Assembly: GCA_947184155.2 (NCBI GenBank)
Contig: CAMXCT020002018.1
Coordinates: 55,127-119,126 of the forward strand
Source: Cladocopium goreaui
Taxonomy: Eukaryota; Sar; Dinophyceae; Suessiales; Symbiodiniaceae
Reading direction: 5' to 3'
DNA: 64,000 bases
Below the pieces are notes generated by a model that saw only the letters and a program-made list of their open reading frames with translations, was not told where the DNA came from and ran no database searches. Positions 24,600-64,000 of the stretch are shown here, one piece after another. Made by a program: the position numbers and the translations under genes. Position 1 is the stretch's first letter. Each line of letters opens with the position of its first letter.

Positions 24600-25965
24600 C
24601 TCACAGCGCAGAAAAAGAAAGTCTCGCACGAAAGCTTTGTTTTCACATCTTCCACTTTCACTTTTTGAAGGACGTCTCGCAGGAAAGCTTCGGTGTCACA
24701 TTTTCCATTGTCACTTTTGCAGGGATGTCTCGCACGAAAGCTTCGTTTTCACATCTTCCACTTTCAGATTTTGAGGGAAGTCTCGCAGGAAAGCTTCGGT
24801 TTCACATCTTCCATTTTCACTTTTGGAGGGACGTCTCGCACGAAAGTGTCGGTTTCACATCTTCCACTTTCAGACTTTGAGGGATTTCTCACACGGAAGC
24901 TGCGTTTTCATATCTTGAAGTCTCGCGCGAGAGGCATTTTTGAAATTTCGCGGATGCTGTGTTTTGCAGGACAAAACGTGCCTCGGAAAATGGATGGGGA
25001 AGCTTCCCCGGCGGGCGGTTGCGGAACACGCTCGTTTGAACCGGGATCATGGTCGGATCAGCCGTGCAGTGGAACTGCTAGTTCAGGCTTCATCTTCACA
25101 ACTTGAACTTTCAAAATTTGAAAGGTGTCTCACACGAAAGCTTCGTTTTCACATCTTCGTCTCGCAGGAAAGCTTCGGTTTCACATCTTCCATTTTCACG
25201 TTTGGAAGGACGTCTCGCACGAAAGCTTCGGTTTCACATCTTCCACTTTCAGATTTTGAGGGATTTCTCGCAGGAAAGCTTCGGTTCCACATCTTCCATT
25301 TTCACTTTTGGAGGGACGTCTCGCACGAAAGTGTCGGTTCCACAGCTTCCACTTTCAGATTTTGAGGGATTTCTCACACGGAAGCTGCGTTTTCATATCT
25401 TGAAGTCTCGCACGAAATGTTTTTTTTTTGCAAGACAAAACGTGCCTGGGAAGATGGATGGGGAAACTTCTCCGGCGGGCGGTTGCCGAACACGCTCGTT
25501 TGAACCGGGATCATGGTCGGATGCGCCGCACAGTGGAACTGCTAGTTCAGGCTTCTTTCTCACAACTTGAACTTTCAAAATTTGAAAGATGTCTCGCACG
25601 AAAGCTTCGTTTTCACATCTTCCACTTTGAGATTTTGAGGGAAGTCTCGCAGGAAAGCTTCGGCTTCACATCTTTTGGAGGGACGTCTCGCACGAAAGCT
25701 TCGGTTTCACATCTTCCACTTTCAGATTTGAGGGAGGTCTCGCTCGAAAGCGTCGTGTGAGCAACTTCAACTTTCACTTTTTGAGGAAGGTCTCGCACGA
25801 GAGGCGATTTTTGAAAGTTAGCCGATGCACGAAAAGCATTTTTTTGCAGAACAAAACGTGCTTTGGAAGATGGATGAGGAAGCTTCTCCGGCGGGCGGTT
25901 GCGGCACACGCTCGCTTAAACCGGGATCATGGTCGGATTGGCCGCGCAATGGAACTGACAGTTCA
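24600..25965. repeat. Composite satellite: about 60-bp unit in about 460-bp higher-order blocks
   Basis: A unit of about 57-63 bp (GTCTCGCACGAAAGCTTCGG, then TTTCACATCTTCCACTTTCA, then a TTTTGAGGGA-type end) is repeated many times. Three longer blocks each begin with AAAACGTGC and contain CGGCGGGCGGTTGC and CCGGGATCATGGTCGGAT: at about 24,973, 25,437 and 25,852. This gives a higher-order period of about 464 and 415 bp. Long frames (up to 255 codons) on the plus strand read the repeat with phrases such as RKASVSHLPLSD; start, frame changes and lack of any known motif argue that they are repeat artefacts, though a repeat protein cannot be excluded. Confidence 0.9.
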
Positions 25966-51901: not shown

Positions 51902-51980
51902 ACTGGGGGGGCTGTGTCCAGGGGCTTCAAAATTGAAGTGCAAAAGCGGCGCCAGTTTTGGGGTCCACCTTGTCGGCCAG

Positions 51981-52205
51981 GAAATTACAAAAGACGAGTT
52001 GGCAAGGCTCAAGGGCCAGCGCTCCGACTTGCGCAAAGCAATGCGAGAGAATCGCAAGGCAGCTAAGAATGCAGCAAAGCGGAAGAAGCGACTTGTCAAG
52101 GCGCTGTCCATGCAGATTTACGCAGTGCAAAGAAATCTTGGTGGAAGTCGTTTATACTGTCTGCTTGCTAAAATGGTTTATGGTCCTTGCGGACAGCGAA
52201 TGTAA
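51981..52205 (+). CDS. Lys/Arg-rich coiled-coil fragment, unit 1
   Basis: After a possible acceptor (GGCCAG) the frame reads EITKDELARLKGQRSDLRKA, then MRENRKAAKNAAKRKKRLVK and ALSMQIYAVQRNLGG, ending at 52,205. It is a very basic helix of the DNA-binding or coiled-coil type. The unit 2 copy differs by one base in AAAAGACGAG, which shifts its upstream frame, but the basic part is the same. Family unknown. It may be an exon of a larger gene of the unit. Confidence 0.45.
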   Translation, partial: EITKDELARLKGQRSDLRKAMRENRKAAKNAAKRKKRLVKALSMQIYAVQRNLGGSRLYCLLAKMVYGPCGQRM

Positions 52206-52354
52206 GCAGCGTTTCTAAAAGACAAAGTGCTAGGTTAAAAGATACAGAGAACAAATGTGAGCTCGATGTTTTCAAGCAGTTTGGAACAAAGTAAGAGGTC
52301 AAAAAGAACCCCGAACTGGCGAATGTGCAAAGGTAAAACGGATTTGAGTTTGTC

Positions 52355-52435
52355 GCTTGGAGACACCCCTGTCAGTCCACGTGCATTTGAGTTTGTCGCT
52401 TGGAGACACCCCTGTCAGTCCACTCCCTGTACAAG
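52355..52435. repeat. Two-copy 43-bp repeat
   Basis: TTTGAGTTTGTCGCTTGGAG followed by ACACCCCTGTCAGTCCAC occurs twice in a row. Confidence 0.9.
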
Positions 52436-52519
52436 GAGATTGCAGGTCGCAGGTGTGACCTGGAAGGGTCGTAGGTGGAGGTTTGAGGGTCGTAGGCGGG
52501 CTTGCAGGGTTGCAGGTAG

Positions 52520-53010
52520 GGTGTACCTTACACACCGTGGTGGTGGTACACCTTAAACACTGGTGTGGTTCACCTTAAACACCGGAGGTGTGGTACACCT
52601 TAAACACCGGTGTGGTTCACCTTAAACACCAGGGTGTGGTACACCTTAAACACCGGTGTGGTTCACCTTAAACACCAGGGGTGTGGGACACCTTAAACAC
52701 CGGTGTGGTTCACCTTAAACACCAGGGTGTGGTACACCTTAAACACCGGTGTGGTTCACCTTAAACACCAGGGGTGTGGTACACCTTAAACACCGGTGTG
52801 GTTCACCTCAAACACCAGGGTGTGGTACACCTTAAACACCGGTGTGGTTCACCTTAAACACCAGGGGTGTGGTACACCTTAAACACCGGTGTGGTTCACC
52901 TTAAACACCAGGGTGTGGTTCACCTTAAACACCAGGGGTGTGGTACACCTTAAACACCGGTGTGGTTCACCTTAAACACCAGGGGTGTGGTACACCTTAA
53001 ACACCGGGAT
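52520..53010. repeat. Minisatellite (GGTGTGGTTCACCTTAAACACC)
   Basis: About 22 copies of a 22-24-bp unit in two alternating forms, GGTGTGGTTCACCTTAAACA and AGGG(G)TGTGGTACACCTTA, so the true period is about 45-46 bp. Each unit begins GGTGT and ends ACACC, giving it internal dyad symmetry. It is flanked on both sides by GTAGGTG/GGGCGGTAGG-type short repeats. The whole block is missing from unit 2. Confidence 0.95.
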
Positions 53011-53460
53011 TTGAGGCCGTAGGTTTGACCTGGACGGGCGGTAGGTAGACCCGTGAGGGCGGTAGGCGGTAGGTTGTGTTTAGACACAGGGCTTTGTTTG
53101 GGGCCTTGCTGCTTGTGGGCTGGTTAGTCTACACCGCGCGGTTGCCACAGTGCGCTTGTTTGGGGTCGCAGGCTTGGCCTTGAAGGGTTGTAGGTGCAGC
53201 GGTGCGGGATGTTGGTGTGCTGATTGTGGTTTGAAGGGGGCCAGATATAGGTTCTTAATTTGGGAGCTTGAAACGCGTAGTTCTCCAAGACCACATGGGC
53301 AGCATTCCCCCATAGTATTGCCACCGATGTTTGGGTGGCAAGCAGATGTTTCTCTTAACCTTCGGTGGAATCGCTTGGATCTTTCTTGTAGGGGTCTAGT
53401 TGACCATAAAGCGTTTGAATGTTAGTGGCGAATCTGTGCACCAGTCTGTTGTTCCTGCAG

Positions 53461-53640
53461 GCGGCCAAAATGTTGTCCACCGCAGATTTGAAGCTCCTGG
53501 TCGAAGCCAAGGAGGCAGGGAGCATGTTTCAAAGGTTTTTCATACCGGGCCAGAGCAATGCTGTCCTGAGGCGGAGGCTGCAGAGTTGGCGAGAGCCCCC
53601 AACTAGGCGTGGTAGAGTTAGAGAGCCTGGTTGGTTTTGA
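53461..53640 (+). CDS. Possible exon, unit 1 only
   Basis: After a good acceptor (TTCCTGCAG) the frame reads MLSTADLKLLVEAKEAGSMF and QRFFIPGQSNAVLRRRLQSW, ending at a TGA at 53,640. The peptide is helical and protein-like. It lies in the block that unit 2 lacks. No family recognised; it could equally be chance. Confidence 0.3.
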   Translation, partial: AAKMLSTADLKLLVEAKEAGSMFQRFFIPGQSNAVLRRRLQSWREPPTRRGRVREPGWF

Positions 53641-55080
53641 CTGCTGAACCAGTCATTCCAAGCTATGCAGCGTCCATTCTGTCAATGCCGTACCGAACCT
53701 GCGGCAGTTTCGTTTTTGATCATGTCCGTGTCACATTTGACTGAAAGAGAGAGAGCCTGCATTTGAAACACAGTAATAAAAGTGTTCTGTCTCAGAATGG
53801 ACAGCGCCCATGCTATCAATGCCGCTCCGAGCCAACCTCATTGTTGTCGTTGTTTTGATTGTGACATGTGCTTGCAGGGAGATCGGGCAGAATGAGAGGT
53901 GCGTGAGGCTCGCAGGAGCCTTTGCCTCGCAGAGCATGGGAAACTACAGTTGCAGTGGTGCAGACCACAGGCCCCAAGGTACAGTTGGAGTGGCATAGAT
54001 CACTCACTTGAGTGGCCTTCGGTTGTGTAGCTGCTTTTCACTCTGCCCGGCTCGTGACACAGACGACCAAAGTGCGACAGCAAATGGGAAACTCGTCGCA
54101 ACAGCCAGTTTGCTTGTAATTTGCCGCACAGTGCTGGCCGATGATTGCGTATAACATGATCTGTCAAGCAAGGGATGAATATGGAATCGGGGCTTGCGAA
54201 ACAAGATTTAGGAAACCCATTTTGTCAGCTAAACATCTTGTTTTGCCAGTTGTTGTCACAAAGGGTTTTTGGACCACATTGAACATTGAACAAGACTTAT
54301 GAGACCTCTTCCCCATGCGCGCCTTTGGTTTTGGCAATCCTCGTCGGTAGAGTTAACTGGACAACCGTCTTTCTATGGGAAGAGATGTGAGCTTGAATTG
54401 CCTGAGGTTATAGATCCCGGGTAAGACTTCTGGACTTTATTATTTGTAGCCGTGACGAGGCCTGCAGTCTTGTAGTTGCAGCTTCGAGCACAGCCATTTC
54501 CTGTCCACCTGCAGCATGTTTGTATGTTTCCTAGTTGTTCCTAGTTTGGTTAACATGTTTGCCGTGTCTTGTAGCAGTGCTGGGTTCCCAAGTCTGAAGT
54601 GTCAGAGTGGTAGGTCCTTGCATGATGTACGGGAATGCATGTGGTGCTCGCGATTTTCTCTGTGTAGCTGATCAGCCGCTTCTGCCTCAGAAACTTTGAC
54701 CTCAGGAGTCGGCAGTCATCTGTCAGCTTAGTGCAACACATGACGCGCATTTGCTTTTGACCATGGCAGCTCCTGGTTTTCTACAAACCGCATTTATAGC
54801 ACGGCCATGTGATTAGCTTGGTTGCTTTGACAGCATTATGTCAGAGTCAGTCGTGACACTTCGAAGGTGTTGTAGTCGTAGTTGCGTGTCATCCTATAGT
54901 CACTTGCTTCCAGGTACACACGCGCCGACCCAATGCATCTCCAAGACGGTGCAGGCGGGGTGATGAAGTGTACGGGTGTCGACATGGACATGTACCGGTC
55001 GCGACTCCGTAGTGTCAGGACCTGCCCCTTCACCCCCGTAGACTCTTAGCGCCTTACTTCCCAATTCATTCTTAGTAGCT

Positions 55081-55149
55081 TGCGGAGGAGGTTCTTTCCC
55101 GACAGAAATAACATTGTATTTTTAGTTCGGGCGAAACCTCCTCCGCGTA
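55081..55149 (+). promoter_or_regulatory. Long hairpin with GGAGGAGG arms: candidate Rep origin, unit 1
   Basis: GCGGAGGAGGTTCTTTCCCGA is answered by TCGGGCGAAACCTCCTCCGC, an imperfect stem of about 20 bp with a 24-nt AT-rich loop. It lies about 160-225 bp before the Rep start. The loop reads, on the minus strand, TAAAAATAC, which shares six of nine positions with the TAATATTAC-type nonanucleotide of CRESS-DNA origins. Further CTCCTCCGC-like words follow at 55,185, 55,212 and 55,263, like iterons. Nicking there is inference. Confidence 0.5.
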
Positions 55150-55305
55150 TTTTCCATTGCAAATGCCACCTGATTTGGCTATTACTCCTCCGCAAGGGTT
55201 TACTCCAAACCTACTCCGCACATTGTTTCCAATCAGAACTAACGCGTTGCTTTGCAGTAAAACTTCCTCCGCTGATGTCCTGTGAGGCAGTGGTTTTGGT
55301 TCAAG

Positions 55306-56700
55306 ATGGTAGCTTCCGCTGTGCAGGTGGCGAAACGCGCCTTAGTTTCCTTGTTGTTGGCGTTGGCCCACCAATATGGAGTCTGCGTGAAGGTCACGCG
55401 GGAGAGCCCTGATCCTTTGGTGGAGAAAGCTTTCCGGTGCATCATCAAGAAGGTGCACCCTGACAAAGGAGGCTGTGTGGAACACGCTCAGCAGTTGCAA
55501 CGAGCGCGGGAGGAATGGCAAACGGTGAAAGGGAGGAAGGACCCTGGTGGCCGACCAGCCCAAGCTTCCGCTATGTCTTTGGTAGGCAAGAAGGAGACAG
55601 GCCGCCAAGGGTATCGGATTCGTTCCGTTGCAGTGCTGTTGACGTACCATGGCGTGCAGCAGGATCAATGGCCAGCTTTCTTGACTTTTGTTCGTGATCA
55701 TGTTGCTCATTGGGGAGTAGAGAAGTGGTGTGCTTCCATGGAGACATGTTCATCAGGCAAGCCACACGTCCACCTCATGGTGCAATTCCACAAAGCCTTA
55801 GACAGCCGTGTGGTTGATGTGTTTTCCTTTGCTGCTGCCAGACCAAATGCGAGCTCCACAGATCTCTGTGGTGAAGGGCTGTCTGGGCGACAGTTGCAAC
55901 GGTCCATTGACCGGGGGATGTTTTACGTCTTCGCAGACAAAATCGGCACACTCTTTGGCAAGGATGGGTTGCCGTTCACAGAGGGCAATTATTTGCCATG
56001 CTGGGTTCGGTGTGAGAAGACCTACCAAGTCCTGGGCAAGTGGCCGGAGACGTTGTGGAAGCAACGTAAAATCAGCTCAGCCACTTATGAGAAATTGCTT
56101 TATTTGACAAGAGATGGTGTGCTCTCACGCAAACGAAATTTAGATGCTTGCAAGGACCATGAGGATAGTGCAGCTTTGACTTTGGCCATGGCAGAGCGAG
56201 TTCAAAGGATTCGGTCCAACCCCAGCCTCTTCCGGCCGTTTCCGAAAGTGCCAGATGCTGAGGCTTGGCTCAAGCTTTTTCAAGCTGATGCCTTGCGCTA
56301 CCCTATCTTGGTTGTGCTCGGGCCTTCCCGAGCAGGGAAAACTGAATGGACCAAGAGCCTGTTCAAGCGACCTTTGGAACTGAAGATAGGAACTTTGGAG
56401 TTTTTCCCAGAGACCATGAGGCACTTTCAGCGGGCCGTACATGATGGATTGGTCCTTGATGATGTGAGAGATTTGAATTTCCTTGTCAGCCACCAGGAAA
56501 AGCTTCAGGGCAAGTATGATGCCTTAGTTGAATTCGGTTCAACTGCAGGTGGCACATGCGCATACCATCGCGATTTGTTTGGCGTGCCAGTGGTTGCAAC
56601 AGTCAATTATTCAACGAAGAATTTAGATTATTTGGAGAATCACGATTGGCTTGCCAACCCTGGAAACAGGGTGGTGGTAGTGCTAAGCGGTTCCAATTGA
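55306..56700 (+). CDS. Rep-like protein: J domain + HUH nuclease + SF3 helicase (464 aa)
   Basis: I take the ATG at 55,306; the open frame begins slightly earlier at 55,282 but without an ATG. Numbering from 55,282: a J domain at about 30-80 with HPDKGG (59-64); a CRESS/geminivirus-like Rep nuclease with motif I VLLTYHG (118-124) and motif II HVHLMVQF (162-169, two His of the HUH); an expected motif III Tyr near FYVFADK (215), though the usual Y-x-x-K spacing is absent; and an SF3 helicase with Walker A GPSRAGKT (347), Walker B LVLDD (390) and motif C VVATVN (437-442). Known Rep proteins nick a hairpin origin and unwind DNA during rolling-circle replication; J domains recruit Hsp70. The gene is intronless and complete. 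A hairpin and iteron-like repeats lie upstream. An integrated ssDNA-virus gene or a Rep transposon are both possible. Confidence 0.9.
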   Translation: MVASAVQVAKRALVSLLLALAHQYGVCVKVTRESPDPLVEKAFRCIIKKVHPDKGGCVEHAQQLQRAREEWQTVKGRKDPGGRPAQASAMSLVGKKETGRQGYRIRSVAVLLTYHGVQQDQWPAFLTFVRDHVAHWGVEKWCASMETCSSGKPHVHLMVQFHKALDSRVVDVFSFAAARPNASSTDLCGEGLSGRQLQRSIDRGMFYVFADKIGTLFGKDGLPFTEGNYLPCWVRCEKTYQVLGKWPETLWKQRKISSATYEKLLYLTRDGVLSRKRNLDACKDHEDSAALTLAMAERVQRIRSNPSLFRPFPKVPDAEAWLKLFQADALRYPILVVLGPSRAGKTEWTKSLFKRPLELKIGTLEFFPETMRHFQRAVHDGLVLDDVRDLNFLVSHQEKLQGKYDALVEFGSTAGGTCAYHRDLFGVPVVATVNYSTKNLDYLENHDWLANPGNRVVVVLSGSN

Positions 56701-56880
56701 TTCTTAATTTGTTTTGCATAGGCTGACGCCCGACCTTCTTGCTAATGTGTTGAAAAAGGTGACATTTCATGTTTTGTCGCAGGTGGTCAAAACACATGTC
56801 CTGTTGTCTGCCTTTTCCCTGATGTTTGTTTCGTGATTTGTTGCAAGTTCACCAGTTTGCTGCTGATGGTTCGACAGGTC

Positions 56881-57210
56881 ATTTCAAACAGTTTCGAATC
56901 CAGTCAATGCAGCTTCTGATTTTGCCAACGTGTCAGCTGGTTTGATGTTTTCCTTTGGCATTTCTTTCTGTATTGACCATGTTGTGGCTGACTGTGGTTT
57001 CATTTGATCGACCTGGCAGGCTGAGACTTTGCGATTCAGCTGTGAGCTTCGACATTGCCTGGAGGTGCGCTTCCAAGGGCTATTTTGGGCAAGATCCGCA
57101 CAGTTTTGAGTCCAGTCTTTGCTCCATGTGTCAGCAAGGTTTCGGCAGGTCCCTTCAAACAGTTTTGACTCCAGTCAATGCAGCTTCTGATTTTGCTAAA
57201 GTGTCAGCTG
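56881..57210 (+). repeat. Two-copy 60-bp repeat, offset 270 bp
   Basis: CAGTCAATGCAGCTTCTGAT, with TTTCAAACAGTTT before it and GTGTCAGCTGG after it, occurs at 56,881 and 57,151. Both copies are also present in unit 2. Confidence 0.85.
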
Positions 57211-57940
57211 GTGCTTTTGCCCTTTGATGTTGTCCTTCTGCATTGGGTTTTGTGTTGACTGATACTTCTCCGAAATATCCGATACGTCAGCCAGCGTACC
57301 TATACTTTTGCAGTTTTTATGCGCCCGTTTTTCTGTGTGGAACATGGCTGTTACCATGGAAGGTGCTGCTATTTGATCCCTTTAGAGTGTGAGTGCTGAC
57401 GAGAGATCTTTGCCACTTGATTTTTTAGAGGCGATGTTCTGCCAGAGAACGTGAGAAAGGTCAGGCTACCTGATTTTTAAATACTTACAAGCTTCTGTTT
57501 CTTGGCAATTTCCTAGAACTGCCGCTTCTGGATTTGAGCATGGCCCGGCCTTGGTGAAGCGTAGGCTTCTAAGCAAACACGAAACAATCAGAAGATCTTC
57601 AATGCTTAAGGTATGATGCAGGGATGATGGAACCATGTTGGAATGGAGCGCTGAGTCTTGAGTTTCAATGGCTGACATTATGACATCAAGAGAGTTTATT
57701 GACGCTTTGACTTTGTTTCACATTGTAGGTCGTACTGGAGCATGGGTGCCTGGAGAAGCCAGCAGCTGAGAAATGCCACAGCAGCAGACCGCCTGTGCGC
57801 ATTTTGTTGTTGGTGTTGAGGGGTTCAATGACTGCTGCCGTTTGTTGTTGTGTCATACCTAGCGGCAACTTGTGTTCAAGCCTTAGACCTTAGAGTTTGC
57901 TACTGCCTGCGCAAGTTTTGTCTTGTGGAAGTGGTCGCCC

Positions 57941-58138
57941 ATGCCGCCCAAAGCAGCTGCGAAAGCGAAGTCGAAGGCTGAGGACTTGGGATTGGGGGTT
58001 CCGTTGTGCATTGGACATGTATTTTCAGTCAAGGTTTGGAACCCCAAAACGGGGTCCAGAAAGAGGCTTGAATTCCAGGGCCTCACTGAAAGACCTCCAT
58101 TGTGCAGCTTCTGCAGCAAAGCCGAAAGCCAAATCTGA
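57941..58138 (+). CDS. Small basic ORF before the transposase
   Basis: ATG at 57,941 starts MPPKAAAKAKSKAEDLGLGV and continues VFSVKVWNPKTGSRKR to a stop at 58,138. The Lys/Ala-rich start is reminiscent of a DNA-binding or nuclear-localising N-terminus. It could be a first exon of the transposase gene. No family recognised. It contains the ACCCCAAAACGGGGT palindrome that recurs in the transposase intron. Confidence 0.35.
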   Translation: MPPKAAAKAKSKAEDLGLGVPLCIGHVFSVKVWNPKTGSRKRLEFQGLTERPPLCSFCSKAESQI

Positions 58139-58222
58139 ATTGTTGACGATTTTTTGGCTCAAACATTTGCTGCTCGGATAGGTGCACTGCTATTCTTGAT
58201 TGCGCGCGCACGCTTGTTAGCC

Positions 58223-58831
58223 ATGTGTGACCAACTAGCGGAGGTGCAAAAGAAGATTGCTAACTTGCAACGGCATATCAGAAGAGCCAAGTAGAGAGAA
58301 ACAGCTCGGGAAGAAATTGTTGACCAACAAGCTCTGGTTGTCTTTATTTTTTCAGGCTATCGTGCCGATGTCGCTGGTCACTTCCACCTTTCCAGATCCA
58401 AACGTTGCATGTCGCTGGACAGTGCAGTGGCTCACGTTGAGTGGGAGTACATCAGAGCTCCTTTGGAAGACAAGGTCATGCTCATGTTGGACCCTTACCG
58501 ACACTATCCGATACATCGGCTACTGGCAGCCTTTCGCTACCTAGTGCTGTTCCAACTGCGTGAGTGGGTTCAGAAAATGAATTATGAATTTGGAGTGGCC
58601 CCATCGCGGCGCATGATGGTCGACCGCGTCCAGCATTTGCTGCCCGACAGTTGGCCTGTTGACTTGCAGGCGCGGCTACTTCGCCCATTAGCAACTGCAC
58701 GCGGCCAGCGCAGGTACCTTGCGGCCTTCAGGAATCGCTTTGGGTGCAAACTTGGCAAGCTACGGACGAGTCCCCCAATGTCGTTGCAGGAGAAGCAGTC
58801 CAAGGCACGGGTGGTTGATTGGCTGGGTTAG
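58223..58831 (+). CDS. Probable N-terminal part of the DDE transposase (one in-frame stop)
   Basis: An ATG at 58,223 opens a frame reading MCDQLAEVQKKIANLQRHIR, meets a TAG at 58,292 and continues in the same frame, RETAREEIVDQQALVVF, then MSLDSAVAHVEWEYIRAPLE and VAPSRRMMVDRVQHLLPDSW to 58,831. The start is a basic coiled coil; the rest is helical, as in DNA-binding N-terminal regions. It leads into a presumed intron before the catalytic part. The assignment rests on position and strand; I see no clear HTH signature. The TAG could be real damage, an intron or a sequence error. Confidence 0.45.
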
Positions 58832-59188
58832 TGTTGTGCAAGCAGATTTGTAAAGGTTTCTTTGAGATGCAGTGTTGACATTCGGTAAATATTTGGGTAT
58901 TCCGGTAAAATGCTGATTTGCTGTTTGTAGGACCATGACAAATCACAACCTCCGGTTCTTGCAGTTTTGAAGCATACAGTGCAAGTTTCGGATCTCATTT
59001 GTACGCATTTTTGATTCCAAATGCGGACCCCGTTTTGGGGTCCAAAAAGCGGACCCCAAAGTGCAGATGACCAAGGTTTCTCACTTCCTAGCCAAATTGC
59101 TTGTCATTTTTGGGTCTGGAAAATAGACCCCAAAATGGGGTCCGCTTTTTGGACTGAAAATGATCATTGTCAAGCGGCCTTTGGCAGG
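58832..59188 (+). other. Presumed intron with ACCCCAAAA/TTTTGGGGT hairpins
   Basis: GCGGACCCCGTTTTGGGGTCC at 59,022 and GGGTCCAAAAAGCGGACCCC at 59,037 have inverted partners in ACCCCAAAATGGGGTCCGC at 59,127. GGGGTCCGCTTTTTGGAC at 59,138 is the reverse complement of GTCCAAAAAGCGGACCCC. Splice sites were not fixed; GGCAG before 59,189 is a plausible acceptor. Confidence 0.55.
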
Positions 59189-60072
59189 CGATGGCCTTTT
59201 GGCAATGGTGCAATTATGCATTGAAGGATGCTGGTGACGAGCCTTTAGTTATCAACATGGATGAGTCCAGCATTGGGTTTCACTGGGGCGCGTTGTCTGG
59301 GACAGTTGTTCGACAAGGGGCCCCGATGGATAAAGTTAAATCGCAGGCTCTCAAAGCCAGGGCCACATACATTTGCGCTGTCACCCATGATCCTGAAGTC
59401 CAGCAGCTTCTGCCCCAGGTGTTGCTGGGCAACAAGCGTCTTTTCCCAGCTGCGTTTGCCCGGCATGCTGCGGAGCTGTGTCCGCGGGTGGTGGTTTGGA
59501 GAGAGAACTCCGCATGGAATACGCACCGGTTGATGGCCAGATACTTGCGACTCCTCTGTGACAGATTGGGGGCTATTTTGGAATCCCGCCAGGTGTTGTT
59601 GTTGCTAGACTTGGCCCCGTGCCACCTGCATGATTCTTTGTTTGATTTGGCTTATTCCCTGGGATTGCGTCTCCTATTTGTGCCTCCTGGCATGACGTCC
59701 TTACTTCAGCCATGCGACCCTCACATCTTTGCTGCTTTCAAGCATAATGTGCAAGAGTCATGGAGACGAAGAAGGGCTGCAGCTCCAGATGGACAGGTGA
59801 GCTTGGAACTGTGGTTGGAAATTGTCGCAAATGCCACCAAAAAGCTGTCGTCGAAGCCATGGAAGCATGCGTTTGAAAGTGATGGTATTCTTGGATATCA
59901 GCATCGTATTTCTTCTCCCTTGCTCAGCAAGCTCGGATGGGTGGATGCGCCGCCCGTTCCCTCAACAATGCCTTCTGGTGGTTTGCCTGACTGCCTGTTC
60001 CCTTTGAAGTGGCAAGGAAATGTGGCAAAATACATCCAATGGAACCCTCATGCGGTCCGCACCCTAGACTGA
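59189..60072 (+). CDS. DDE transposase, pogo/Tigger-like catalytic domain
   Basis: Frame open from about 59,167 without an ATG; after a GGCAG acceptor it reads AMAFWQWCNYALKDAGDEPL. Catalytic triad (numbered from 59,167): D32 in INMDESSIG, D148 in LLLLDLAPCH and D184 in TSLLQPCDPHIFAAFK, i.e. DD35D. 'P-P-G-M-T-S-L-L-Q-P-C-D' is the signature of the DDE_1 (pogo, Tigger, Jerky) domain. It would cut and join DNA at element ends. The frame ends at 60,072, 40 bp before the start of unit 2. It is carried in the same unit as the Rep gene; whether the two proteins act together is unknown. Confidence 0.85.
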
Positions 60073-60186
60073 GGGTACAACTTGTGGGAAAATAGTTTGT
60101 GCGCTGCACTGGGGGGGCTGTGTCCAGGGGCTTCAAAATTGAAGTGCAAAAGCGGCGCCAGTTTTGGGGTCCACCTTGTCGGCCAG

Positions 60187-60371
60187 GAAATTACAAAGAC
60201 GAGTTGGCAAGGCTCAAGGGCCAGCGCTCCGACTTGCGCAAAGCAATGCGAGAGAATCGCAAGGCAGCTAAGAATGCAGCAAAGCGGAAGAAGCGACTTG
60301 TCAAGGCGCTGTCCATGCAGATTTACGCAGTGCAAAGACATCTTGGTGGATCATGTCCGTGTCACATTTGA
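60187..60371 (+). CDS. Lys/Arg-rich coiled-coil fragment, unit 2
   Basis: Same basic helix as at 51,981-52,205 (DELARLKGQRSDLRKAMREN, then RKAAKNAAKRKKRLVKALS) but it runs into different sequence after the deletion join and stops at 60,371. One A fewer in the AAAGACGAG stretch changes the upstream frame. Confidence 0.4.
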
Positions 60372-61712
60372 CTGAAAGAGAGAGAGCCTGCATTTGAAAC
60401 ACAGTAATAAAAGTGTTCTGTCTCAGAATGGACAGCGCCCATGCTGTCAATGCCGCTCCGAGCCAACCTCATTGTTGTCGTTGTTTTGATTGTGACATGT
60501 GCTTGCAGGGAGATCGGGCAGAATGAGAGGTGCGTGAGGCCCGCAGGAGCCTTTGCCTCGCAGAGCATGGGAAACTACAGTTGCAGTGGTGCAGACCACA
60601 GGCCCCAAGGTACAGCTGGAGTGGCATAGATCACTCACTTGAGTGGCCTTCGGTTGTGTAGCTGCTTTTCACTCTGCCCGGCTCGTGACACAGACGACCA
60701 AAGTGCGACAGCAAATGAGAAACTCGTCGCAACAGCCAGTTTGCTTGTAATTTGCCGCACAGTGCTGGCCGATGATTGCGTATAACATAATCTGATCTGT
60801 CAAGCAAGGGATGAATATGGAATCGGGGCTTGCGAAACAAGATTTAGGAAACCCATTTTGTCAGCTAAACATCTTGTTTTGCCAGTTGTTGTCACAAAGG
60901 GTTTTTGGACCACATTGAACATTGAACAAGACTTATGAGACCTCTTCCCCATGCGCGCCTTTGGTTTTGGCAATCCTCGTCGGTAGAGTTAAGGACAACC
61001 GTCTTTCTATGGGAAGAGATGTGAGCTTGAATTGCCTGAGGTTATAGATCCCGGGTAAGACTTCTGGACTTTATTATTTGTAGCCGTGACGAGGCCTGCA
61101 GTCTTGTAGTTGCAGCTTCGAGCACAGCCATTTCCTGTCCTGCAGCATGTTTGTATGTTTCCTAGTTGTTCCTAGTTTGGTTAACATGTTTGCCGTGTCT
61201 TGTAGCAGTGCTGGGTTCCCAAGTCTGAAGTGTCAGAGTGGTAGGTCCTTGCATGATGTACGGGAATGCATGTGGTGCTTGCGATTTTCTCTGTGTAGCT
61301 GATCAGCCGCTTCTGTCTCAGAAACTTTGACCTCAGGAGTCGGCAGTCATCTGTCAGCTTAGTGCAACACATGACGCGCATTTGCTTTTGACCATGGCAG
61401 CTCCTGGTTTTCTACAAACCGCATTTATAGCACGGCCATGTGATTAGCTTGGTTGCTTTGACAGCATTATGTCAGAGTCAGTCGTGACACTTCGAAGGTG
61501 TTGTAGTCGTAGTTGCGTGTCATCCTATAGTCACTTGCTTCCAGGTACACACGCGCCGACCCAATGCATCTCCAAGACGGTGCAGGCGGGGTGATGAAGT
61601 GTACGGGTGTCGACATGGACATGTACCGGTTCGCGACTCCGTAGTGTCAGGACCTGCCCCTTCACCCCCGTAGACTCTTAGCGCCTTACTTCCCAATTCA
61701 TTCTTAGTAGCT

Positions 61713-61782
61713 TGCGGAGGAGGGTCTTTCCCGACAGAAATAACATTGTATTTTTAGTTCGGGCGAAACCTCCTCCGCGTAT
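61713..61782 (+). promoter_or_regulatory. Long hairpin: candidate Rep origin, unit 2
   Basis: Same stem-loop as at 55,081-55,149, with one change in the left arm (GGAGGAGGG for GGAGGAGGT). The CTCCTCCGC-like words downstream are retained. Confidence 0.45.
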
Positions 61783-61937
61783 TTTCCATTGCAAATGCCA
61801 CCTGATTTGGCTATTACTCCTCCGCAAGGGTTTACTCCAAACCTACTCCGCACATTGTTTCCAATCAGAACTAACGCGTTGCTTTGCAGTAAAACTTCCT
61901 CCGCTGATGTCCTGTGAGGCGGTGGTTTTGGTTCAAG

Positions 61938-63340
61938 ATGGTAGCTTCCGCTGTGCAGGTGGCGAAACGCGCCTTAGTTTCCTTGTTGTTGGCGTTGGCC
62001 CACCAATATGGAGTCTGCGTGAAGGTCACGCGGGAGAGCCCTGATCCTTTGGTGGAGAAAGCTTTCCGGTGCATCATCAAGAAGGTGCACCCTGACAAAG
62101 GAGGCTGTGTGGAACACGCTCAGCAGTTGCAACGAGCGCGGGAGGAATGGCAAACGGTGAAAGGGAGGAAGGACCCTGGTGGCCGACCAGCCCAAGCTTC
62201 CGCTATGTCTTTGGTAGGCAAGAAGGAGACAGGCCGCCAAGGGTATCGGATTCGTTTCGTTGCAGTGCTGTTGACGTACCATGGCGTGCAGCAGGATCAA
62301 TGGCCAGCTTTCTTGACTTTTGTTCGTGATCATGTTGCTCATTGGGGAGTAGAGAAGTGGTGTGCTTCCATGGAGACATGTTCATCAGGCAAGCCACACG
62401 TCCGCCTCATGGTGCAATTCCACAAAGCCTTAGACAGCCGTGTGGTTGATGTGTTTTCCTTTGCTGCTGCCAGACCAAATGCGAGCTCCACAGATCTCTG
62501 TGGTGAAGGGCTGTCTGGGCGACAGTTGCAACGGTCCATTGCCGGTGGGATGTTTTAACGTCTTCGCAGACGTGTGAATTCGTGGCACACCTTTGGCAAG
62601 ATGGGTTGCCGTTCAAGAGGGCAATTCTTTGCTCATGCTGGTTCCGGTGTGAAAGACCTTACCAAAGTCTGGGCAATGTCCTAGACCTTGTGGAAGCAAC
62701 GTAAATCAGCTAGCCACTTATGAGAAATTGCTTTTATTTGAACAAGAGGATGGTGTGCTCTCACGCAAACGAAAATTTAGATCGTGCAAGGACCATTAGG
62801 ATAGTGTCCGCTTTGACTTTGGCCATGGCAGAGCGAGTTCAAAGGATTCGGTCCAACCCCAGCCTCTTCCGGCCGTTTCCGAAAGTGCCAGATGCTGAGG
62901 CTTGGCTCAAGCTTTTTCAAGCTGATGCCTTGTGCTACCCTATCTTGGTTGTGCTCGGGCCTTCCCGAGCAGGGAAAACTGAATGGGCCAAGAGCCTGTT
63001 CAAGCGACCTTTGGAACTGAAGATAGGAACTTTGGAGTTTTTCCCAGAGACCATGAGGCACTTTCAGCGGGCCGTACATGATGGATTGGTCCTTGGTGAT
63101 GTGAGAGATTTGAATTTCCTTGTCAGCCACCAGGAAAAGCTTCAGGGCAAGTATGAATTGCTTAGTTAATTTCCGGATTCAACTGCAGGTGGCACATGCG
63201 CATACCATCGCGATTTGTTTGGCGTGCCAGTGGTTGCAACAGTCAATTATTCAACGAAGAATTTAGATTATTTGGAGAATCACGATTGGCTTGCCAACCC
63301 TGGAAACAGGGGGGTGGTAGTGCTAAGCGGTTCCAATTGA
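61938..63340 (+). pseudogene. Damaged second copy of the J-HUH-SF3 Rep gene
   Basis: Colinear with the intact gene in unit 1. The J domain and motif I are intact, but motif II reads HVRLMVQF: the second His of the HUH is Arg. Walker B reads LVLGD: the first Asp is Gly. A premature stop follows SIAGGMF at 62,556, and from about 62,540 to 62,810 there are many one-base insertions and deletions; another small group lies near 63,155-63,175. Walker A and motif C are intact. Both catalytic changes are A-to-G transitions. The product, if made, would be a truncated J-plus-partial-nuclease protein. Confidence 0.85.
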
Positions 63341-64000
63341 TTCTTAATTTGTTTTGCATAGGCTGACGCCCGACCTTCTTGCTAATGTGTTGAAAAAGGT
63401 GACATTTCATGTTTTTGTCGCAGGTGGTCAAAACACATTTCCTGTTGTCTGCCTTTTCCCTGATGTTTGTTTCGTGATTTGTTGCAAGTTCACCAGTTTG
63501 CTGCTGATGGTTCGACAGGTCATTTCAAACAGTTTCGAATCCAGTCAATGCAGCTTCTGATTTTGCCAACGTGTCAGCTGGTTTGATGTTTTCCTTTGGC
63601 ATTTCTTTCTGTATTGACCATGTTGTGGCTGACTGTGGTTTCATTTGATCGACCTGGCAGGCTGAGACTTTGCGATTCAGCTGTGAGCTTCGGCATTGCC
63701 TGGAGGTGCGCTTCCAAGGGCTATTTTGGGCAAGATCCGCACAGTTTTGAGTCCAGTCTTTGCTCCATGTGTCAGCAAGGTTTCGGCAGGTCCCTTCAAA
63801 CAGTTTTGACTCCAGTCAATGCAGCTTCTGATTTTGCTAAAGTGTCAGCTGGTGCTTTTGCCCTTTGATGTTGTCCTTTTGCATTGGGTTTTGTGTTGAC
63901 TGATACTTCTCCGAAATATCCGATACGTCAGCCAGCGTACCTATACTTTTGCAGTTTTTATGCGCCCGTTTTTCTGTGTGGAACATGGCTGTTACCATGG

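Follow-up and report, generated by a model that had tools for sequence, protein, structure and literature searches.

The window, a 64,000-nucleotide stretch of the Cladocopium goreaui genome, contains an uninterrupted gene whose predicted product is a Rep-like protein of 464 residues (Rep). This gene lies in a segment, termed X, that is followed by a second segment, termed Y, and then by another copy of X (Table 1). Translation of the sequence confirmed the intact 464-codon reading frame given in the preliminary description, and the six motif strings listed there (HPDKGG, VLLTYHG, HVHLMVQF, GPSRAGKT, LVLDD and VVATVN) were all found in the protein. The proposed domain order, a J domain followed by HUH nuclease motifs and SF3-like motifs, is likewise borne out in the window protein and in its homologues. 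At least 500 homologues are present among public proteins at E ≤ 1e-3, and 75 of the 120 listed were aligned (alignment A1). Residues H51, P52, D53, E146, H156, Y207, K212, K345, T346, D386, T432 and N434 are identical in all 75 sequences, and H154 is retained in 74. An organism is named for seven of the 120 homologues listed; in agreement with the earlier placement of the gene in an algal genome, all seven sequences come from dinoflagellate species: Durusdinium trenchii (2), Polarella glacialis, Symbiodinium natans, Symbiodinium CCMP2592, S. necroappetens and Karenia brevis. In a comparison by the NG86 method of the window-family Rep with a 73%-identical gene on contig C4227, a dN of 0.19 was obtained against a dS of 2.5, a value near saturation. 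This low dN relative to dS indicates that Rep is under selection at the protein level. In the comparison of the window family (fam1) with a second subfamily (fam2), dS was saturated.

Table 1 Features of the Rep locus in window coordinates.
Feature	Position	Strand	Remarks
Segment X (mobile unit with Rep)	51902..58103	+	Host T, then ACTGGGGGGGCTG at left; CCTCCATTGT at right; from comparison with other copies
X left end, ACTGGGGGGGCTG	51902..51914	+	Preceded by host T; from comparison of copies
47-bp tandem repeats	52525..53005	+	About ten; palindromic ACACCGGTGT cores
J-HUH-SF3-like Rep gene	55306..56700	+	464 codons; ATG at 55306, stop ends at 56700
J domain	55333..55530	+	About residues 10-75; HPD at 55456-55464; Pfam and PDB profile matches
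HUH nuclease region	55615..56001	+	Residues 104-232; HVH at 55765-55773, Y207 at 55924-55926; weak profile matches
SF3-like ATPase region	56239..56697	+	Residues 312-464; labelled from motifs
X right end, CTCCATTGT	58095..58103	+	Next base is host A where an array ends; Y follows within arrays
Segment Y	58104..60107	+	Between X copies; Y-Y tandems elsewhere
First Y ORF (140 aa)	58409..58831	+	Homologous to N-terminal ORF of fam2 Y2
DDE_1 (pogo/Tc5-like) transposase ORF (301 aa)	59167..60072	+	PF03184, E 1.3e-12; start codon uncertain
Second X copy	60108..64000	+	Without the equivalent of 52146-53717; reaches contig end
Second Rep copy	61938..63340	+	96% identical; broken, ORFs 61914-62558 and 62720-63169

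Profile comparisons support the assignment of the N-terminal part of Rep as a J domain. Taken alone, the window protein matches the Pfam family PF00226 with an E value of 0.024 and 15.2 bits, which is under the Pfam cut-off of 27.8; the same family is matched at E ≤ 0.01 by 65 of the 75 A1 homologues, with a best value of 6.8e-10. The best PDB matches of the A1 profile are DnaJ domains (6.1e-6), and large T chains also appear among them with E values of 0.017–0.26. The HPD tripeptide is invariant in the aligned homologues (75/75), which answers the concern, raised with the original proposal, that this N-terminal part might never be joined to the Rep. If large T is taken as a guide, the probable role of the J domain is to bring in Hsp70, which would assemble or recycle the Rep–DNA complex.

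The HUH nuclease region is supported by its motifs together with weak profile matches. At E ≤ 0.01, Gemini_AL1 is matched by 8 of the 75 whole A1 proteins and REP_ORF2-G2P by 4, all weakly. With the nuclease domain cut out and a looser limit of E ≤ 0.5, the matches, again weak, number 6 of 12 (best 0.014) and 7 of 12 (best 0.00095), respectively, and in a comparison of the nuclease profile with the PDB, caspase-3 (0.14) is level with Rep structures (0.15 and 0.38). The usual motif III of CRESS Reps is YxxK, the Tyr of which would fall at position 209, a residue that is Tyr in just 6 of the 75 homologues. The equivalent in Rep is Y207-x4-K212, a Tyr–Lys pair that is invariant in A1 (75/75), and catalysis with this unusual YxxxxK spacing is plausible. 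In the ATPase region, the letters of the two Walker motifs (A and B) and of motif C are invariant in A1. No SF3 family profile or SF3 structure matched this region, generic P-loop models being found instead; a profile-based proof of SF3 was therefore dropped, and the label is applied here on the basis of the motifs and their order.

Judged from the comparison of copies, the window Rep belongs to a multicopy mobile element. In the loci compared, X (6.2 kb) and Y (2.0 kb) are arranged head to tail as host-X(YX)n-host; X is also present as solitary copies. Arrays that begin with Y, as well as Y-Y junctions, start with ACTGT; a host T precedes both Y-first cases that were read (L026 and L099), and at the left end these arrays have just ACTG in common with X. 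One Y-Y array (L096) ends in ...ATAGT followed by a host A. A deletion of X that runs from ACT(G) to (T)GT would leave this ACTGT at the start of Y, as would a three-base excision footprint of X. Motifs of the type CCAAAAC-GGGGTCC / TTTTGGGGTCC, which we take to be, perhaps, introner-like inverted repeats, lie near both X ends (window 51948–51966 and 58039–58057) and around the interval that separates the two Y ORFs (59025–59061 and 59125–59152), and their counts in the window are above chance (11 versus 3.6 and 9 versus 2.0 expected). Elsewhere in the window, a satellite with a 7-bp unit in about 245 copies occupies positions 225–1960, and a tandem array of 53-bp repeats occupies positions 24621–25800.

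The C. goreaui genome (1.17 Gb, 6,202 contigs) was searched with a 72-residue Rep probe, and 150 of the 215 candidate matches were scored. Among these are at least 76 copies of at least 99% identity, distributed over 52 contigs, the rest being one match at 86%, one partial match at 83% and 72 matches at 56–58%. When the whole protein was used, 91 of 749 candidates were scored; at least 48 of them span residues 1–464 at 99% identity or more, and 47 of these 48 are free of inner stops. Over 1,392 nt, nine of the 15 Rep loci compared differ by no more than a single base, the exact start string used to locate the gene being absent from the other six. From the near-identity of these copies, it appears that amplification is recent or that the copies have been homogenised. 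Two or more Reps are carried by at least 20 of the 52 fam1 contigs among the probe matches listed, and on C5328 the two Reps lie on opposite strands. Further J-Rep subfamilies, 56–58% identical to the probe, are found on C1204, C1410, C3223, C4, C3580 and C2234; some are in tandem, and the copies on C1204 are 8.1 kb apart.

The Rep of fam2 is 51% identical to that of fam1, and the element follows the same plan with an X2 of 4.9 kb and a Y2 of 2.2 kb, Y2-Y2 tandems being present as adjacent matches. Its left end is ACTAGGGAGGCCC and its right end is GGGCCTCCCCTGT, with a host A next in all eight right ends fetched. The fam2 ends hold a short inverted repeat (GGGAGGCCC/GGGCCTCCC), whereas the inverted repeat of fam1 is poor. 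The 47-bp repeats of the two subfamilies are about 95% identical (window 52525–53005; L034 1523–2042), compared with 51% for the Reps. Genome-wide, one 22-base core of the 47-bp repeat has 1,695 occurrences, compared with 0 for the reversed control. A reading of these repeats as element-specific iterons is weakened by the presence of the motif on contigs such as C3, C161 and C188, for which no Rep is among the matches listed.

Across many different flanks, the ends of the element are exact: a host T is followed by ACT...GT and then by a host A. To characterize the target, flanks of fam1 and fam2 were pooled from the window and from stretches of other loci. Six left and seven right stretches that represent internal X-Y junctions were left out, as were L087, L091, L093 and L094, which are without a readable host end, and a shared-flank pair on each side was collapsed. 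The distinct left flanks end in T in 25 of 26 cases (the exception, L038, has C), and all 27 right flanks start with A. At position +2 of the right flanks, G or C is found in 26 of 27 (L029 has T), whereas the mirror position of the left flanks has G or C in 11 of 26 (Fisher p = 1.5e-5); relative to a 47% G/C background at the base after TA, taken from the part of the window to the left of the array, the bias has a p value of 4.5e-8. Because the preference is seen at +2 and not at the mirror position, the target appears to be polar, T^A(G/C), a pattern that a strand-specific nuclease would be expected to produce. This rule is also obeyed by the left end of the element itself, T^AC. An unoccupied relative of the C1501 site, located in a flank of C4680, has the same base as the joined C1501 flanks at 73 of 75 positions, and no base is inserted or deleted.

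Junctions between X copies were sought in the genome with up to one mismatch, and none was found, the sole place returned being an unrelated palindrome; simple X circles are thus not supported. The joined fam1 ends give no hairpin signal (z = +1.05, with 182 of 200 shuffles folding as well), and the joined fam2 ends fold as a hairpin of 10 bp whose loop contains T^AC (z = −3.84, with 0 of 200 shuffles as good). X circles with an origin hairpin at the X-X junction were rejected as a model, given that fam1 has no such signal and the junction itself was not found at this stringency. Several loci have mixed flanks: C3946 (L016, L017) and C6015 (L020, L021) have a common left flank and differ on the right, and C6015 and C214 (L058, L078) have a common right flank and differ on the left. 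Their arrangement reads as recombination between arrays or assembly chimerism. In addition, the fam1 array on C3946 and the fam2 array on C194 are apparently separated by 8 bases in relatives of a single host sequence (AGCCTAGT^ACGATG; right flank of L016 and left flank of L034), both at T^A sites.

The transposase ORF of Y is homologous to its counterpart in Y2 (E 1e-57), and the N-terminal ORF of Y2 has a weak, sub-threshold match to a Tc5 HTH. Among the matches listed, 39 of the 42 contigs with fam1 Y also contain a fam1 Rep (those without are C284, C4471 and C6073), and 13 of the 52 contigs with a fam1 Rep are without Y. For fam2, the matches listed include 34 DDE contigs and 39 Rep contigs, 17 of which are common to both. 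The two genes are also paired on C4227, where the Rep is 73% and the DDE 37% identical to those of fam1, and in L102, where Rep matches as two overlapping pieces. L102 is a contig of 7,582 bases, the ends of which overlap by exactly 141 bases to give a 7,441-base cycle in the assembly; it is filed in a Cohaesibacter genome bin, where it is probably misbinned, and a search of the prokaryotic collection gave no other relative. A third DDE family (fam3), about 72% identical to that of fam1, was found on at least 11 contigs among the matches listed, and each of the 11 also holds an exon-like stretch that encodes part of a divergent protein. This piece, which we read as Rep-like, was not matched by the J-Rep profile. 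In L101, it is followed, in the same frame after a stop, by a P-loop piece with the sequence GGTRLGKS. The fam3 units of L101 (C6064:7000-7800) seem to place a strongly diverged and perhaps intron-containing Rep-like gene beside the DDE gene.

In five lineages, then, a DDE gene adjoins a gene for a Rep or a Rep-like protein, and the view of Y as a chance flank was rejected, since homologous DDE genes adjoin Reps in several of them. The two modules differ in kinship: the Reps of fam1 and C4227 are 73% identical while their DDEs are 37% identical, and the similar DDEs of fam1 and fam3 accompany a Rep and a piece unmatched by the Rep profile. These differences suggest a repeated partnership of two transposition systems. 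Other partners of J-Rep are hinted at by a gene model from S. necroappetens (P0041), in which J-Rep continues into the HTH of a Tc3-type transposase (PF01498).

Three origins had been offered for the gene at the outset. A Rep-driven transposon is the one now favoured, and an integrated virus gene is not, given the exact, repeated insertion and the lack of a viral relative or capsid match in the searches described below. We consider it somewhat probable that the element is a one-ended, rolling-circle-like mobile element of dinoflagellates in which Rep is the cutter. In the scheme that we infer, from the chemistry and the identity of the cutting protein to the XY circles and the role of Hsp70, Rep would nick at the left end (^ACT), its ATPase would unwind the DNA, and Rep would cut the displaced strand at GT^, the right end, and join it to a host T^A(G/C) site. 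On an XY template that is circular or in tandem, passage beyond the stop would insert X(YX)n arrays, and a template of this kind, with its start at ^ACT and its stop at GT^, would yield arrays without X-X junctions. The DDE_1 transposase would be a recurrent, exchangeable partner that may serve in excision, circle formation or alternative integration. Arrays and solitary X copies are both accounted for, because one-ended transposition with stop bypass predicts both, and polar cutting together with the T^AC left end fits a single-strand HUH nuclease.

Confidence in Rep as the cutter is tempered by the presence of the DDE gene and by the fact that a TA duplication would leave the same letters, the ends reading equally as TA/CT...TG/TA. 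It is lowered further by the absence of a hairpin signal in fam1, the failure to find X-X junctions at up to one mismatch, the lack of an SF3 profile match, the YxxxxK spacing, the short ACTG match of Y-first arrays to X and the two deviating flanks (L038 and L029), and XY circles were not seen in this genome. In a pogo/Tc5-like transposon with TA duplication, the DDE_1 transposase would move X or XY, and J-Rep would amplify excised circles or be cargo. This explanation is rather unlikely but deserves weight: the PF03184 match in Y, the inverted repeat in the fam2 ends, the recurrent Rep–DDE pairing and the ACTGT at the start of Y units, readable as a three-base footprint between two TA, are all consistent with it. 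It is less easily reconciled with a target bias that is polar rather than mirror-symmetric, with the poor inverted repeat of fam1, and with a DDE gene that lies outside the ends of X, a segment that moves without Y in the 13 of 52 listed contigs noted above.

Repeated endogenisation in tandem of CRESS-like DNA virus genomes would account for the HUH and SF3-like motif order, the weak Gemini_AL1 and REP_ORF2-G2P matches, the head-to-tail copies and the closure of the public relative L102 into a cycle. Such an origin is improbable, because dozens of insertions obey one exact end and target rule and the partner is a DDE transposase. Moreover, none of 56 pattern matches in viral_contigs, a collection from which records near the window's genome may be absent, was confirmed as a relative, and Pfam searches with 12 further, short X/Y ORFs (besides Rep and DDE) gave nothing above the cut-off and no capsid type. 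Tandem gene arrays are common in dinoflagellates, and the arrays and the signs of protein-level selection could also be expected of a domesticated host gene in ordinary arrays of this type; the identical ends in many unrelated flanks and the existence of an empty site, the C1501 relative, make this origin very improbable.

Like the Reps of Cressdnaviricota, the protein has HUH motifs followed by SF3-like motifs, and the T^AC letters at the cut are also those of the CRESS virus nick site. It differs from them in the added J domain, the YxxxxK spacing, the weak profile similarity and the chromosomal arrays; a capsid gene and viral relatives, which would define a virus of this group, were not found in the searches above. 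The order of polyomavirus large T is J, origin-binding/HUH-like and SF3, its middle domain being without nuclease motifs. Rep resembles large T in this order and in the J similarity described above, and nothing shows common descent of the two whole proteins. With pogo/Tc5 DDE_1 transposons, the element shares a DDE_1 gene, here in Y and not in X, and TA letters at both ends; it is distinguished by the position of that gene outside the X ends, a polar target, the presence of a Rep gene and an inverted repeat that is clear in fam2 and not in fam1. To our knowledge, the known eukaryotic HUH transposons are Helitrons and Replitrons. Helitrons insert at A^T, have TC...CTRR ends and use a different helicase. 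Neither this target nor these ends are seen here, where a T^A target and ACT...GT ends are combined with SF3-like motifs and a J domain. The resemblance to Helitrons and IS91 lies in an HUH protein, distinct start and stop ends, tandem copies and, on the T^A reading, no target duplication; stop bypass giving tandem copies has been described for IS91 and proposed for Helitrons (PMC10701932).

Replitrons are likewise eukaryotic HUH-encoding transposons known from algae, and they are described as having lengths of 0.9–4 kb, direct terminal repeats of 5–11 bp and target duplications of 2–8 bp (PMC10741241). By comparison, the X units are 5–6 kb and have other ends, ACTGGGGGG and CTCCATTGT, with no common direct repeat; read in the alternative way, the ends would allow a TA target duplication of 2 bp. 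The nearest precedent found is a geminivirus-like transposon of the fungus Tuber melanosporum (Liu et al. 2011, PMC3198968), a repeated chromosomal element in which, as in the present one, a Rep-like gene lies beside transposase ORFs, two in that case. In the searched text of that report, which does not mention a J domain, the Tuber element is described as having no obvious target duplication, 37-bp terminal inverted repeats and interrupted ORFs, in contrast to the intact J-Rep, short ends, tandem arrays and T^A(G/C) target found here. A literature search, for which subscription papers and preprints were mostly out of reach, returned no paper describing such an element.

Tentatively, and as a possibility that we rate below the Rep-driven mechanism itself, these elements may constitute a new class of eukaryotic rolling-circle transposon, with a J-HUH-SF3-like Rep as the transposase, polar T^A(G/C) targets, separate start and stop ends, a recurrent and exchangeable DDE_1 partnership, and the domain order of large T reached independently with a live nuclease. 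The recent, near-identical copies and their exact ends make Rep-mediated integration into eukaryotic chromosomes directly testable, and the order of J domain, nuclease and ATPase offers an independent case in which to ask what a J domain does for polyomaviruses. Finally, these results suggest that Rep–DDE elements are one source of the repeated DNA in dinoflagellate genomes.
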